Virus record (IMG/VR): IMGVR_UViG_3300032087_004909
Coordinates: 1-24,101 of that record
Reading direction: 5' to 3' (one strand)
DNA length: 24,101 nt
Source: a virus
Shown piece by piece: positions 5,610 to 11,996 of the stretch (position 1 is the first letter of the stretch; every line of letters starts with the position of its first letter). The translations under genes were made by a program, and so were the position numbers. The notes under the pieces are model-generated. The model was given only the letters and a program-made list of their open reading frames with translations. It searched no databases and was not told the DNA's origin.

Positions 5610-7922
5610 TTATCCTATCCTTGCTCCCTCAGACCCGTCGGAGTTCAGTCCAAAAGCGTCTGTAATGAATGGTCCGTAGGGACCGAAATCTGCGGCGTTG
5701 TATGTAGCTGCAATTACTGCAGGGTCCGCGATGAAGTACTGAATACCATCTTGCGTGATATCAACAGCCTTGATTTTCTGGCGATGCCCCGCCTCAACTT
5801 CTTCAGCTTCAATAATCAGCCAGCGGCGGGCGACGTCTTTCTTTCCTCGCCTGTCCAAAACTTTGTAGTGATCAACTGAGATGAAGTCGCCAACCCACAG
5901 TTGCCTGTCTTTGGCGTCAACCATAAAAGTGATGTACTGCGGAACGTCTTTGTAGCGTCGAGAATACCTTGCTCCGGTTTGGTTGCCTTGCGCAACAGTC
6001 TCCAACCAGCGAGAATACATCTGACGAGTTTGAGGAAGATCGCCGTATTCATCCGGCCCAGTGGCCTCACTATTACTTACGATAATATGCTGACGATAAT
6101 TCTTTCCCAGCCCCAAATCGCGCGTATAGTCTCGCGGCTGGATACGAATGGAAATGGTAGTCAACCGTTCTTTAGGCCGTTCCTCCAGCGTCAACGTGCC
6201 ATCAATTATATCATCAGCCTCAGTTAGAGTTTGGTCAACGGTAGTCAGCGGGCGAATGGCTTGCATGTCAACGATCTGCCGCCGCTCATTCCACCAGATG
6301 TAGAACGCACACTGCTCCGCGATCTCACCAATCAATTCATCCACACCAGTTGGTTCTGTGATAAGCGTGGTCAGGGTGTAGGCTGTAAGTTGCCCGTCAT
6401 ACTCGCTGGTGAATTTAGCCAAATCAAGAAGTTGTGTAGGAATTTGACTGTCATTAACCAGCAGGTCTTCGAGAACATCGTCAATTCTTGCACTAGTGTA
6501 TCTGCGACAAAGTTGCACATCATCCTCGATGTCATGAGTATCCGCCGTTGAGTTATCTGTTCCGCGCGTAACGCCGGTGAACTCGGTACGCGGCCCAGCA
6601 AGCGGGGTAGTTACGGTAAGCCCCGTGTACGTCATCAACTCATCGTCTATGCGAACTGTCCCGGTGTTTGGAAATTTGTCAGTCACGTCTCCGAGAATGA
6701 AGAAAGATGTTTGCGCGGCATCCATAGCGAAAAGCAAATCGCCGTCAGATTGCGCGGGAACTTGGGCTTTTGCAAACTCGGTCAGGGATAAATAGTCGCG
6801 GGTTTCCAGGGTTGCAGTCTTATCGCCCAGTATCAGACGATCAGCTACATAGGCTTGCGAGGTCATTTCAGATAGTTTCTGTCCATCATAGCCTGAGTAA
6901 AGGCGCACAACGGCGCGAGTCTTACCGAACTTATTTTGCACTAGCCAACGAGACCAAAAAGTTCCGATAGTCAGTGGGTCAGTTTCTCTATCGTTCAAAT
7001 AGGGATCGTAAGGGTAGCCTGAATGAGGAGCGTCGTTAAAGGTGGCCGACATAAACGCTCGACGACCAATCGGTTCGTATCGTTGATCACTATTAGCGAG
7101 GTTCAGTCTTGCGCCGACAGCCGATACACTATTCAGTATTGGCAATATATGAATATCATCAAGAGGTTTAGCTTTTCGGCCATCGTCAAAAAAGTACTCT
7201 ATATGATAACCATCTTCGTTTTCGTTAAGATTAGACCGCGCAGTATTTTCGTATATATTGAAACTTAAGATAAAGCCATTGAACGTGCCACCATCTTCCC
7301 CCGTTGGAATAGCTCCATTATCCCCACCAATTTGCCCCGCATCCGTGGAAGCCCATGTGGCAGGAACTGACCCGGTGAGTGTATTTTCGCCTAACTTTCG
7401 GAAATGTAGCTCAACAGGGTCAAAATACCACAAAGCAACTGTACCATTCTCAACTACACCAATAAAGTCCATTGTAGTTCCAATGAAAGGAGCGACTGGT
7501 GTAGTGATAATTGCCGTAGTAGTGTTGGGAGTAGCTGCACCGTTATACGCTCGAAGAACGATGTTGGCACCAGTAATCCCAAAGTACACGCCGGACGTAG
7601 AGTCGCCTTGCTCCCATATCGTTCCGACCGGGCTGGTTTTAAAACGTATCCGAGTCTTGAACAAGAAATCATCGGCAAGGTTAGCGAAATCGCCGCTTAC
7701 CAGAACATCATCTTGTTCCCCGAGTATTGTTGGAGTCAGATGTGCGAGTGGCCGCGCCTGATAATTTACGACATCATTACAAGTTGCACGAGTATTCATA
7801 CACTTCTGATCACCTGTCAGTGTGGCTGTGCAGGGAGCCACTCCATAAGTATTCACGCACTTTGGTGTGACTATATCGAGAATTTGTACGGGTTCACGAC
7901 CAACTGTATTTTCATCACTCAT
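5610..7922 (-). CDS. Tail hub/tip protein with N-terminal cysteine cluster and inserted LamG-like domain
   Basis: A 770-residue protein. ATG 7922 (MSDENTVGREPVQILDIV) is preferred over 7949 because AGAGG lies 9 nt upstream. Residues 22-48 hold C-x8-C-x9-C-x6-C (KCVNTYGVAPC, KCMNTRATC). Residues ~72-230 form a beta-rich LamG/concanavalin-like domain (DFLFKTRIRFKTSPVGTIWE, GVYFGITGANIVLRAYNG, MDFIGVVENGTVALWYF). Residues ~240-770 match the siphophage hub family typified by Mu-like/B3-like phages: a DPLTIGTFWSRWLVQN block, a TVRIDDELMTYTG segment, QLCRRYTSARIDDVLEDLL and EPTGVDELIGEIAEQCAFYIWW. It would close the tail tube and carry fibres. The LamG-like insertion may bind surface glycan. The start overlaps the distal-tail-like gene by 8 nt. 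Confidence 0.85.
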   Translation of the reverse strand: MSDENTVGREPVQILDIVTPKCVNTYGVAPCTATLTGDQKCMNTRATCNDVVNYQARPLAHLTPTILGEQDDVLVSGDFANLADDFLFKTRIRFKTSPVGTIWEQGDSTSGVYFGITGANIVLRAYNGAATPNTTTAIITTPVAPFIGTTMDFIGVVENGTVALWYFDPVELHFRKLGENTLTGSVPATWASTDAGQIGGDNGAIPTGEDGGTFNGFILSFNIYENTARSNLNENEDGYHIEYFFDDGRKAKPLDDIHILPILNSVSAVGARLNLANSDQRYEPIGRRAFMSATFNDAPHSGYPYDPYLNDRETDPLTIGTFWSRWLVQNKFGKTRAVVRLYSGYDGQKLSEMTSQAYVADRLILGDKTATLETRDYLSLTEFAKAQVPAQSDGDLLFAMDAAQTSFFILGDVTDKFPNTGTVRIDDELMTYTGLTVTTPLAGPRTEFTGVTRGTDNSTADTHDIEDDVQLCRRYTSARIDDVLEDLLVNDSQIPTQLLDLAKFTSEYDGQLTAYTLTTLITEPTGVDELIGEIAEQCAFYIWWNERRQIVDMQAIRPLTTVDQTLTEADDIIDGTLTLEERPKERLTTISIRIQPRDYTRDLGLGKNYRQHIIVSNSEATGPDEYGDLPQTRQMYSRWLETVAQGNQTGARYSRRYKDVPQYITFMVDAKDRQLWVGDFISVDHYKVLDRRGKKDVARRWLIIEAEEVEAGHRQKIKAVDITQDGIQYFIADPAVIAATYNAADFGPYGPFITDAFGLNSDGSEGARIG

Positions 7923-9165
7923 AAGAATAGACCTCTGCTTCAAAACCAAATGACCATAGGTCGCTGATACCCATAGAGGACGGGGGCGAAGTTTTTCCGC
8001 TCATAATGTAGGAGGCATCTGAGGTGAGTTCCGGACGCCACGCTATGAAGGCTGCGTTGGCTTCGAGGTTCTGAATAATACCTGACGGTGTGTCAATGTT
8101 AGTGCGAACCCAGGTGTAAGTAAGGTGCTGCCACTCATATTTTTCTGTCAGGAGTGTCCTGCGTTTGGACCTACCCATTAACTCGCCATTACCACTCAGA
8201 TTGCCAATGACTTCCGTAGCCCGCCCCATACGTGCGGGAGTAAACCCCGCATAAAATGGCCGTTCGAATACGAGTGGATCGCCTACATGCAGAACCCCAA
8301 TCTCAGGTAAGACACCCCGGTCCACTGTGATCCGCCAGCGGCTAGATGACACGCTAGCAAAGAAGAACATGATGGCGCTGTCATCTGAGGGGGACAATGT
8401 GCCGATCGAGGTCCACGTATCGTCATTGTTACTGTCATGCTCGAAGTTGATCCGTGCACCCGTAAGACCGAGATTGTGTGCGCCGATTGCCATGCAGGTT
8501 CCTGCCTGAGCGGTGAATGTGTCAAGGCGAAGGGAGGCGGACGAGGCATGAACTGCCATGCGCAACGCCTTGATAGTATTGGTGACTACTCCAGCATAGC
8601 TCACAGTTTCCGACCCGTTCGACATCAAGAGTTCAACAACCCCTGCCGCAGCAACTGGTGTGAAGCGGATGGTAAGCTCGAACTGATCATTGCCGAGGTC
8701 AAAGATTTGAGCGGTGCAATTGGCCTGTGTTCCTACAGTTCCGTCGCGCAAGTCGAAGAACGCGGTAAAGCTGGTTGTGCCATCGTTTGCACGAAGCTGG
8801 ACTTCTGGCACAGTCTGCCGCTCGACTCGAACCGCCGCCACATGCTCAACAGCCGTGAAAGTGTAGGGTTGCGAAATATCATGCTGGCCGCTGGTCACGG
8901 TCTCTATCAGTGTAAGCGTATCGCCGCCAATAGTCAGGTTCGTCGCAGTCCAGTCGTCCCCGGTGTAGTCGCTCGGATCAGTCAGGCCGTTGGCGAAAGG
9001 CTTCCAGCGGTCTACCGTCAGGTCGTTGTTGACAAGCGCTGAATTGCCTGACACCGCCTCAGCCGTGGCCGAAACCGACTTAATCCGCAGCTTGTTTCCG
9101 CGATGAAGTAGCCGAGCGTATTTTCCGTTGGTCCAGGTGTACCCTGCCTCAGTTGCAATTGTCAT
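7915..9165 (-). CDS. Distal-tail-type minor tail protein
   Basis: A 416-residue protein starting MTIATEAGYTWTNGKYARLLH. Its ATG shares one base with the tape-measure stop (TAATG). The centre is beta-rich and jelly-roll-like (residues ~50-220), followed by AIGAHNLGLTGARINFEHDS, which resembles F5/8 or discoidin-like segments. A conserved C-terminal block then contains FYAGFTPARMGRATEVIGN, GRSKRRTLLTEKYEWQHLTY, FIAWRPEL and SFGFEAEVYSYE. The same C-terminal block is familiar from proteins placed between tape measure and hub in siphophages. By position and fold it should form the distal tail ring joining the tube to the hub. No enzyme motif is seen. Confidence 0.78.
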   Translation of the reverse strand: MTIATEAGYTWTNGKYARLLHRGNKLRIKSVSATAEAVSGNSALVNNDLTVDRWKPFANGLTDPSDYTGDDWTATNLTIGGDTLTLIETVTSGQHDISQPYTFTAVEHVAAVRVERQTVPEVQLRANDGTTSFTAFFDLRDGTVGTQANCTAQIFDLGNDQFELTIRFTPVAAAGVVELLMSNGSETVSYAGVVTNTIKALRMAVHASSASLRLDTFTAQAGTCMAIGAHNLGLTGARINFEHDSNNDDTWTSIGTLSPSDDSAIMFFFASVSSSRWRITVDRGVLPEIGVLHVGDPLVFERPFYAGFTPARMGRATEVIGNLSGNGELMGRSKRRTLLTEKYEWQHLTYTWVRTNIDTPSGIIQNLEANAAFIAWRPELTSDASYIMSGKTSPPSSMGISDLWSFGFEAEVYSYE

Positions 9166-11390
9166 TATGTGCGTCCTCGAATACTAATTGGCAGCGTACC
9201 ATCGCTCGCGCCGTCGTTAATTGCCTCAGCAATCTGTACGATTTGCGCACGACTGAAACCTTGATCGCCGATGAGAGTGAGGGAAACTTGTGGACCTTGC
9301 GCCTGAGCGGGTGTAGCGGGGGCCGCTGAAGTCGCCCCACCTCCACCACCTGCGCCACCTGCGCTCACACTTTGAATGGATGAAATAGCCCCAAACCCTT
9401 GCGCCACAACAGCTGCAAAAGCTGCGATGTTTTGTGGGAAGGGTAACTCTAGTGCCTTTGCTGCCCCAACCCAGGTACTAATCAAGGCTTGTGCCGCACC
9501 AAATACTTTAGAGATTTTAACCATCTTTGAACCGCCTTGAGACAGCGCAGCCGCCATGTCGCCCATGAACTGCTCTGTTTGCTGCAGACTGGTCCCGTAG
9601 CGGTACACGTCAATCTGCGCCATCTTATTCTGATGCTGTTTCTGCGCTTCCTCACTCATGGCTTGATATTCTTGCTCTGTAAGGAGTCTTTGCTCAAGGG
9701 CGGTGCGGAGAACTTCTTGCTGTTCGGTGTAATGCGTAAGCTGGAGCTCAGCTTCGGTGGCCAAACTCTCGCGAAGGCGCTCGAGGTCTTCTTCACTGCG
9801 CTCGAAAGGAGACTTACCCCCACCACCTCCGCCTTTCCTACCACCACCGGGGCTTACGTAGCCAGGTTCTCCCGGTATAGGCTTAAAGTCTTCAGGAATA
9901 AATTCACCTTTACCGCCAAACGCAGTAAGGGGGTCTTCGGCGTTCATTAACGCAAGTCTTTCAGCATATAATTGATTGCCCGCAGCCACGGCTTGCTGAA
10001 GTCCTAGTTCTGAGCCTAGGACATCAACATAAGCAGAAGCAGTTAAGTCTATGGTGACAACGCGCTGTCTGTATAACTCATTCAATGCGACAGTTGCTGC
10101 GCTGAGACCCGCTTCGGAACCTAATATATCTACATATTTATTTGCTGTATCGTCAAGTGTTCCCAAACGAGCAGCAAATATATCAAGCACCGCAGCCGCT
10201 GCAGCTGCTAGGCCATCTTCTGATCCTAAAATGTCCTCATAATTATTGGCTGTGTCGTCAATAGTACCCAGTCGCGCTTTATACAATTCATTATTAGCTT
10301 TAATAGCTGCCGCCAGTCCTTCTTCTGAGCCTAGAATATCATCGTATGCTACTTTTCGCGCCCGTTCGATAGCTATCATTTCTTCGGCGGTCTGAATTAT
10401 AGAAACTAATTGCTGGTAGAAGGTTGCTTGCGCCTCATTCATTCCTTCATAAGCACCAACTACGCCTGTAAATTGTGTTAACAATTGGTTGGCTGCGGAT
10501 ACTTGTCCTTCTAGCGTATCTGATTTTCGTAACGTGTCGAAAGACGCAGAAAGCATCATTACCTCATCCTGTACATCTTTGATAGATACACGGAATGAGT
10601 CGAACATAGGTTTATCAATTAACTCTGATATTTTATCAATACGACTCGAAAAAGTCTTAGAGTCAAAAGTCTCAACCAAGAGATCACGAGCTGCGACCAG
10701 TTCTTTCTTCAGGTTAATAAAATTCATATGAACTACACTAGCGCCGAGACTAGATGTAGCTCCTGCAGCTTCTATGGCTTTTGAAATATAATCGTCGAGT
10801 TCGGGATTGAGTCTTTCAATTGACTCTTTATACGATGTCATCTTGGATTCAGTGGATTCAATTATCTTCTTAAAATCACGAGTTTCTTGACCCGCCTTAT
10901 ACGCCTTAAGCCCCCATTGCACAAGGTAGCTCGCCCCTGCAATAGCACCTAGAACCATCAGGCTCATAGGGTTGATCATAGACGTTATACCCTTACCCAG
11001 GGTCCTAAAAATCTGGGCGTTGGTTGCTCCATTGGCAGCCATCATTTGAAAGACTTGGTTGATCTGAGTACCCTGCTGGATCGCAGTCATCATCGGAGCC
11101 TGCCCGGCGGCTATCATAACGCTGACATCGTTGAACTGCGCAGCGAGGTTACCAGCACTCATCGCAGCAACACGGTTCTGTTTTTCTAAAGAGTTGGTAC
11201 GACCACTAGCTAGTACACTAGCCTCACCAGCAACTCTAGTTGCTGCAGCTTGAGCCCTCTGCGCGGCAGACGTATCATTGAGAGCTGCCGCCAGTCTTCT
11301 CTGCTCTTGCGCGGCCTTTCGTGCCTTATTTGTAAGGTCCGTAGCGTCCGCAGTCATGACTACGTGTGTGCCAGTTGTCTCAGTTGCCAT
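9165..11390 (-). CDS. Tape measure protein with four internal 35-residue repeats
   Basis: A 741-residue protein. The N-terminus is Ala-rich and coiled-coil forming (TNKARKAAQEQRRLAAALND). Residues ~80-117 carry the prophage tail-length tape-measure signature (NLAAQFNDVSVMIAAGQAP, MMTAIQQGTQINQVFQ), followed by a hydrophobic segment at ~139-160 (NPMSLMVLGAIAGASYLVQW). Long helices occupy 165-350. Residues 351-485 hold four tandem units opening D-[IV]-LGSE-x-GL. Residues ~505-525 are a Gly/Lys-rich flexible stretch, followed by a helical C-terminus with an amphipathic hydrophobic segment (FGAAQALISTWVGAAKAL). It sets tail length: at ~1.5 angstrom per residue, about 110 nm. The start overlaps the chaperone frame by 11 nt, as is usual for G/T-tape measure modules. 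Confidence 0.92.
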   Translation of the reverse strand: MATETTGTHVVMTADATDLTNKARKAAQEQRRLAAALNDTSAAQRAQAAATRVAGEASVLASGRTNSLEKQNRVAAMSAGNLAAQFNDVSVMIAAGQAPMMTAIQQGTQINQVFQMMAANGATNAQIFRTLGKGITSMINPMSLMVLGAIAGASYLVQWGLKAYKAGQETRDFKKIIESTESKMTSYKESIERLNPELDDYISKAIEAAGATSSLGASVVHMNFINLKKELVAARDLLVETFDSKTFSSRIDKISELIDKPMFDSFRVSIKDVQDEVMMLSASFDTLRKSDTLEGQVSAANQLLTQFTGVVGAYEGMNEAQATFYQQLVSIIQTAEEMIAIERARKVAYDDILGSEEGLAAAIKANNELYKARLGTIDDTANNYEDILGSEDGLAAAAAAVLDIFAARLGTLDDTANKYVDILGSEAGLSAATVALNELYRQRVVTIDLTASAYVDVLGSELGLQQAVAAGNQLYAERLALMNAEDPLTAFGGKGEFIPEDFKPIPGEPGYVSPGGGRKGGGGGGKSPFERSEEDLERLRESLATEAELQLTHYTEQQEVLRTALEQRLLTEQEYQAMSEEAQKQHQNKMAQIDVYRYGTSLQQTEQFMGDMAAALSQGGSKMVKISKVFGAAQALISTWVGAAKALELPFPQNIAAFAAVVAQGFGAISSIQSVSAGGAGGGGGATSAAPATPAQAQGPQVSLTLIGDQGFSRAQIVQIAEAINDGASDGTLPISIRGRT
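9936..10340 (-). repeat. Four tandem 105-nt (35-residue) units in the tape-measure gene
   Basis: Units start at 10340, 10235, 10130 and 10025 (last one incomplete), exactly 105 nt apart. The protein consensus is D-I-L-G-S-E-x-G-L-x-A-A, then a helix with NELY-x-x-R-L, then T-[IL]-D-x-T-A-N-x-Y. The DNA of the units has diverged at many third positions while the residues are kept, so this is an old, selected protein repeat and not a recent duplication. Confidence 0.88.
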
Positions 11391-11619
11391 TTTGCTCTAT
11401 CTTCTCACTATGGAGTTTGCGCGCCTTGGCCCACTCGCCCTCAGTAAACTTTGAGCCAGGCTTAGTCTGCATTTCCTTAATTCGCCTGGCTTCGGCTATC
11501 TTTGTATCGAACTCCCAGAACCATTCTTGTGTAGACAGGTTCCAAAATTCACTTGGGGCCATGTCCCAACTGCGGGCCGCTTTGTAAGCTGTCTTAACAA
11601 AATCGTTCCAGGTTATGAC
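11380..11619 (-). CDS. Tail assembly chaperone, frameshifted C-terminal part (T-like, TAC_6/GTA gp10.1-type)
   Basis: This frame is open from the slippery site at 11619 to the stop at 11380 (79 residues). It begins VITWNDFVKTAYKAARSWD, and the first ATG (11562) lies 19 codons inside it. The family resemblance is to small alphaproteobacterial tail chaperones with a W-x-x-F/L...A start and a P-x-x-FW-x-L-[ST]-x-x-E motif, here PSEFWNLSTQEW. That motif begins just after the internal ATG, and the conserved WNDF/AYKAA part lies upstream of it, so translation must enter from the overlapping G frame. The expected main product is the N-terminal chaperone fused to this domain by -1 frameshifting (about 205 residues). 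It should coat the tape measure during tail assembly. Internal initiation at 11562 remains possible. Confidence 0.78.
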   Translation of the reverse strand, partial: VITWNDFVKTAYKAARSWDMAPSEFWNLSTQEWFWEFDTKIAEARRIKEMQTKPGSKFTEGEWAKARKLHSEKIEQNGN

Positions 11620-11996
11620 TTTCCCGGCTCATCCTTCGCGTCTGACGTCTCCATTTCTTCTTCAGGCTGCGGGCCGACAATATGCGTGACGTAGCGGGTG
11701 GCTTCACTCATAGCCGAAAAGAATCCCTCCTCAAAAACCAATTCTTGCACCTCTTCCAACTTCATCGTCGATCCCGCAGCCTTGAGACCAATATAGATGA
11801 CTTGCGGAACATTGTCAATATCAAATTGCCATTTCGGAGTGTAGTTGATACCCCGAGAGTGCATTGCATCAGTTACAGAAGCCTCGCGGGCCATCTGCAT
11901 AGGGTCACAAACCTTCTCGGCCAATTCGAGGCTGGCCTTGAAATTCGCTAGCAGGGTAAGTTCTTTACCTGCGAGTTTGATGGTAACTTCTCTCAT
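11613..11996 (-). CDS. Tail assembly chaperone, N-terminal frame (G-like, GTA gp10-type)
   Basis: A 127-residue protein. ATG 11996 (MREVTIKLAGKELTLLANF) is chosen over the upstream in-frame GTG at 12029 because GGGAGA lies 5-6 nt before it, and because the longer form would run into a strong hairpin. The segment LAGKELTLLANFKASLELAE matches the beta-hairpin/helix opening of GTA gp10-like tail chaperones. A helical middle (VPQVIYIGLKAAGS) and an acidic tail (PQPEEEMETSDAKDEPGKS) follow. It lies between major tail protein and tape measure, where chaperones are found. Its last codons contain the heptamer GGGAAAG, so a fraction of ribosomes should continue into the downstream frame. The unshifted product ends at TAA 11613-11615. 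Confidence 0.82.
   Translation of the reverse strand: MREVTIKLAGKELTLLANFKASLELAEKVCDPMQMAREASVTDAMHSRGINYTPKWQFDIDNVPQVIYIGLKAAGSTMKLEEVQELVFEEGFFSAMSEATRYVTHIVGPQPEEEMETSDAKDEPGKS
11619..11625 (-). promoter_or_regulatory. -1 programmed frameshift slippery site G GGA AAG
   Basis: Read on the minus strand, codons CCG-GGA-AAG-TCA-TAA contain the heptamer GGGAAAG in the X-XXY-YYZ register required for tandem slippage. It is identical to the lambda G/GT site. After a -1 shift the frame continues GTC-ATA-ACC-TGG with no stop until 11380. The site lies 2 codons before the zero-frame stop, at the junction of the two chaperone frames. Confidence 0.82.

Follow-up and report, generated by a model that had tools for sequence, protein, structure and literature searches.

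The closest described arrangement is the G/GT tail assembly chaperone pair of phage lambda (Xu, Hendrix and Duda 2004, as reviewed in PMC5009743). GGGAAAG lies there shortly before the first frame closes, and a -1 shift gives a fusion extension. Across tailed phages, G/GT genes commonly undergo -1 shifting at a low level (PMC5009743), about 7% frameshifting has been measured for an HK97-like chaperone cluster (PMC3711429), and phages of Rhodobacter capsulatus are stated to have the usual chaperone frameshift (PMC8601537). The second comparison is with RcGTA, one of the gene transfer agents (GTAs), which are domesticated phages, whose genes here have been named tail chaperone 1 and 2, the second being g10.5, in an account that leaves frameshifting unmentioned (PMC11409702).

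The locus described here resembles lambda G/GT in its heptamer, in the -1 shift and fusion extension that it would produce, and in its place before the tape measure gene. It differs in that its two frames, A and B, fall within the GTA gp10/gp10.1 families, in that many of its relatives use GGGGGAG, and in that its fusion is predicted. It resembles RcGTA g10 and the gene that follows (rcc01692/rcc01693) in the order of the families, PF11836 then PF09550, in their place in the tail operon, and in the usual -1 position of B; in the Rhodobacterales GTAs that we read, by contrast, the second gene is started independently and the slippery site is absent. On the basis of sequence comparison we read the locus as a siphovirus-like tail assembly chaperone cassette in which a predicted -1 shift on GGGAAAG would yield a GT-like fusion, and we place the probability of this reading at roughly 0.93. 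Annotation would accordingly be corrected from two small "hypothetical" tail genes to one cassette with a predicted fusion product, and GTA gp10/gp10.1 would be tied to the lambda G/GT system.

Two overlapping frames between the tail tube and tape measure genes

The window, meaning the whole stretch of DNA that was analysed, is an entire viral contig of 24,101 bases. Its morphogenesis genes lie on the minus strand in the order terminase, portal, capsid, tail terminator, tail tube, A/B region, and tape measure. The overlapping pair of frames is flanked upstream of ORF A by the gene for the major tail tube protein (PF06199; 12053..12454, minus strand) and downstream by the tape measure gene (PF06791, 741 aa; 9165..11390, minus strand), whose first 11 nt, counted from the ATG, overlap frame B at its end. 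The protein encoded after the tape measure (7918-9165, minus strand) gave a weak match, below cut-off, to the NCBIfam model GTA_spike_fiber (NF048003, E 3.6e-7).

ORF A (11613..11996, minus strand) encodes a putative G-like tail assembly chaperone of 127 aa that ends in ...DEPGKS*. As the first-pass annotation had read it, the zero frame closes with CCG GGA AAG TCA TAA, and both the sequence and its relatives place the slippery heptamer GGGAAAG (11619..11625, minus strand) in the phase G_GGA_AAG, with the single sense codon TCA between it and the TAA stop (11613..11615, minus strand). A TGA in the -1 frame lies just upstream of the heptamer (11629..11631, minus strand) and therefore confines the shift to a 13-nt overlap, within which GGGAAAG is the sole slippery site. 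After the slip the -1 frame reads VITWNDFVK... and, again in agreement with the earlier reading, stays open for 79 codons up to a TGA at 11382-11380. This is ORF B (VITWNDFVKTAYKAARSWD...; 11380..11619, minus strand; 79 codons plus TGA), the T-like part of the predicted G-GT fusion of 205 aa (11380..11996, minus strand), in which the junction would fall between ...DEPGK and VITWNDF.... The first ATG of frame B (11560..11562, minus strand) is 53 nt beyond the A stop and, as had been pointed out, follows the conserved opening of the frame; its position is not conserved among relatives.

Most ribosomes would read ORF A to the TAA and produce the short chaperone (G). A minority would slip by -1 on G_GGA_AAG, where tRNA-Gly would exchange GGA for GGG and tRNA-Lys would exchange AAG for AAA, and would continue through frame B to give the 205-aa GT fusion. 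By analogy with lambda, the role of the fusion may be to load the tape measure protein with tail tube subunits. We infer the occurrence of the shift, its rate, which by comparison with lambda may be a few per cent, and what G and T bind.

The family assignments of A and B draw on their relatives. ORF A of the window matched PF11836 (Phage_TAC_11, GTA gp10) with an E-value of 5.9e-4 and 20.3 bits, below the cut-off of 27.8, and ORF B gave no match to PF09550. Among 30 aligned proteins of each kind, 11 A proteins matched PF11836 (best 1.6e-6), 21 B proteins matched PF09550 (Phage_TAC_6; best 9.7e-5), and three B proteins matched TIGR02216 (rcc01693, GTA gp10.1). From these relatives, A is assigned as a distant member of PF11836 and B as a distant member of PF09550/TIGR02216, so that the link to GTA gp10/gp10.1 drawn in the first-pass annotation appears sound on grounds of homology. 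The predicted model of ORF A has a pLDDT of 92.4; a search of PDB structures with this model gave no significant match, the best (Z 4.1) being a Vibrio PICI-like protein of unknown function.

Conservation of the junction among phage relatives

Direct searches with the short proteins of the window found no relatives in viral contigs, and the same queries against phage records gave just weak, doubtful matches to one phage (phiR18). The major tail (tube) protein was used as bait instead, and 70 loci were retrieved from viral contigs. The junction is spanned in 46 distinct loci including the window, or 45 after leaving out the frame-broken locus L020. In these loci the gene after the tail tube gene is an ORF A homologue, followed by frame B in the -1 frame in all but L020, and in most of them frame B opens with [GK]xTWAxFVKxAYxxARxWGxxPSEFW. 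In L020 the frames are broken near position 1743, upstream of its GGGAAAA, when compared with L021, which is likely an assembly or sequencing error.

An in-phase slippery motif was present at the junction in 44 of the 45 distinct relatives, compared with 0.92 expected from the rate within gene A (10 in-phase motifs per 4,897 positions), and the same motifs occurred in the other two phases at the junction in only 3 and 2 of the 45. On these counts a chance origin of the motif is excluded at the level of the family. The expectation that the heptamer itself would recur in relatives held for its slippery function and failed for its exact sequence: the 46 loci carry GGGGGAG (19), GGGAAAG (10), GGGAAAC (8), AAAAAAG (3), GGGGGAA (2), AAAAAAA (1), and GGGAAAA (1), the remaining two being L020 and L038, the latter with GGAAAAG in that position.

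The codons that precede the ATG, which the first-pass annotation had supposed to be conserved in relatives, were compared over 17 codons of frame B around its opening in 30 loci. The pooled values were pS 0.69 and pN 0.26 (pN/pS about 0.38); pN was the smaller of the two in 430 of 435 pairs, and when the same stretch was read in the other two frames pN exceeded pS. These codons are under purifying selection in the -1 frame only. The second frame has no initiation codon at its opening, and selection acts on it right from the point of slippage. The conservation of the motif, its phase, and the selection confined to the -1 frame make programmed -1 frameshifting to a GT-like fusion very likely, which would place the locus among frameshifts of the lambda G/GT kind.

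Frame B might instead be translated by itself into a small protein, beginning at the ATG at 11562 or at a non-ATG codon, by coupling to the termination of A and with no fusion formed. An ATG-initiated ORF of 60 aa is indeed present in frame B, Rhodobacterales GTAs do start gp10.1 independently, mostly at an ATGA or GTGA overlap, and in four GGGGGAG relatives whose stop is TGA a GTG occurs at the overlap. The ATG nevertheless comes only after the conserved [GK]xTWAxFVKxAY opening and is absent or shifted in relatives, and no ATG, GTG, or TTG occurs before the end of the opening (the conserved AY) in 36 of 45 relatives. Of the two routes to the opening that had been offered, a frameshift or a non-ATG start, the first is therefore retained and the second falls away as a general alternative. 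Separate initiation would also leave unexplained the slippery motif in 44 of 45 relatives, a motif that is absent from own-start GTAs, and we regard it as improbable.

Cultured phages carry the same A/B arrangement, with AAAAAAG, CCCAAAG, GGGAAAC, or GGAAAAG in the overlap, and share the gene order of the window: these are Oceanospirillum phage GJ44, Marinomonas phage P12026, Alteromonas phage PB15, Pseudoalteromonas phage Pq0, Idiomarinaceae phage 1N2-2, Desulfofustis phage MD02, and Microcystis phage Mae-JY02. A prophage version with GGGGGAG was found in a Hoeflea MAG. The A/B slippery arrangement was not found in Rhodobacter phage RcapNL, and no joined A-B product is annotated in the records of the cultured relatives that were checked. 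In the Mae-JY02 record (PP395635.1; L185:3425-5335), the gene that occupies the tape measure position bears the annotation NAD-dependent DNA ligase, probably in error. The window is a metagenomic contig and L020 does look frame-broken near the junction, features that might suggest a single ancestral gene split either through faulty sequencing or through the recent gain or loss of one base. A lone indel would not recur in this way, with the same -1 offset and motif in 44 of 45 relatives, in cultured phages, and in the Hoeflea MAG, and the comparison with relatives refutes that explanation, to which we give almost no weight.

Slippery-site variants and a downstream hairpin

The GGGGGAR and GGAAAAG sites fall outside the strict X_XXY_YYZ pattern; they could fit it if tRNA-Glu (UUC) leaves GAR to pair with GGA, a G-U pair forming at the middle position. 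The same argument has already been proposed for GGGGGAA in the PRFect study, which reports this sequence in about a thousand phage motifs, as the "fivetwo" motif of actinobacteriophage tail chaperones (PMC10885494). The idea that GGGGGAG is a new class of slippery site was dropped for this reason. The relatives' GGGGGAG has the Gly-then-Glu codon logic in common with the "fivetwo" motif and differs in ending in G, in having the stop directly after the heptamer, and in a covarying hairpin. The window carries the canonical GGGAAAG instead.

Relatives with GGGGGAG have their stop codon immediately after the heptamer and, usually, a 10-bp hairpin that starts 5 nt past the heptamer (seen in L027, L028, L037, L062, L077, and others); this hairpin is absent from most relatives with canonical heptamers. 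In the RNAalifold consensus for this group, four of the ten pairs are changed on both sides, with 13 both-side-changed cells compared with 3.8 in shuffles and far lower values in slid controls, although part of this covariation could be codon constraint, the stretch being protein-coding as well. Mean folding z was -2.2 for the GGGGGAG loci and -0.4 for the canonical-motif loci (Mann-Whitney p 0.0009, for related sequences that are not independent). Folding of the window, which belongs with the canonical-motif loci, revealed neither this hairpin nor another strong downstream structure (z 0.1). It is plausible that the weaker slippery sequence is paired with a stronger stimulator.

Slippage of RNA polymerase, rather than of the ribosome, is a very improbable route to the -1 frame, since a few relatives do have runs of A6-A7 or G5 but the runs in GGGAAAG are only three long, too short for polymerase slippage, and both the dependence on zero-frame codon phase and the hairpin of the GGGGGAG group fit ribosomal slippage.

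The gp10/gp10.1 junction in gene transfer agents

The first-pass annotation had remarked that gp10 and gp10.1 are usually annotated as separate genes. This is true of the Rhodobacterales GTAs, and GTAs of other orders carry CCCTTTN at the junction. Rhodobacterales here means the order that contains a Rhodobacteraceae genome. PF09550 is present in 129 of 150 genomes of that order. At 55 of the 70 Rhodobacterales loci read, A and B are in different frames, gp10.1 has its own start, and there is no heptamer; 47 of these 55 are in the -1 phase, with a typical overlap of ATGA or GTGA. One further locus has its own start together with a chance G7 run.

For three other orders (junctions read at L102, L104, L107, and L189-L249), the 65 loci comprise 40 in which gp10.1 lacks a start and CCCTTT[C/T/G] stands in phase, 24 with an own start and no heptamer, and one assigned to neither class; the two arrangements exclude each other. 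CCCTTT is invariant at all 40 sites, with C (27), T (9), or G (4) as the seventh base, and 0.66 heptamers of any kind would be expected at these sites by chance. TTT accounts for just 35% of the phenylalanine codons in these GTA genes, despite its invariance at the slip sites. In the own-start GTAs that keep the FxW motif, CCC never precedes the F codon, which is TTT in 15 of 21, compared with 38 of 38 CCCTTTN loci (Fisher p 0.0012). Trees of the tail tube and gp10 proteins give four to five switches between the two arrangements; as a single own-start clade is not rejected (AU p 0.53), they fix neither the direction nor the number of the switches.

In three distant prophage-like loci of Rhodobacterales genomes, the A and B domains lie in one uninterrupted frame (L172:166-822, L173:349-960, and L176:222-989). 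The single frame of L172 matches both families, with a weak match to PF11836.

We regard it as probable that RcGTA-type GTAs of several alphaproteobacterial orders join gp10 to gp10.1 by a -1 shift on CCCTTTN, and that the GTAs of Rhodobacterales, the group of the laboratory model RcGTA, use a separate gp10.1 start, usually in an ATGA overlap by which the -1 phase is preserved. GTAs and phages would then have three modes: frameshift, separate start, and single frame. No published account of frameshifting at GTA gp10/gp10.1 was found in the literature searched, which mostly excluded subscription journals, so that this absence is no proof of novelty. A paper on the Wolbachia GTA (PMC10299305) was considered as a precedent and set aside; it deals with a +1 shift in a hydrolase rather than with gp10/gp10.1. 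Frameshifted and separately started GTAs offer a natural comparison for asking if building a tail of set length, especially a very short one, depends on a covalent GT fusion and on its ratio.

The loci are genuine GTA clusters. In L251, portal, protease, capsid and tail tube genes occur together with TIGR02217-2219 and a megatron of full length, and L258 contains the corresponding Pfam families, PF11836 and DUF2460 among them. L251 and L258 both show the RcGTA-type succession of short tape measure, DUF2460, NlpC/P60, and megatron. The window lacks this succession: its tape measure is 741 aa long and its tail tip genes are of other kinds. It is a phage, not a GTA.
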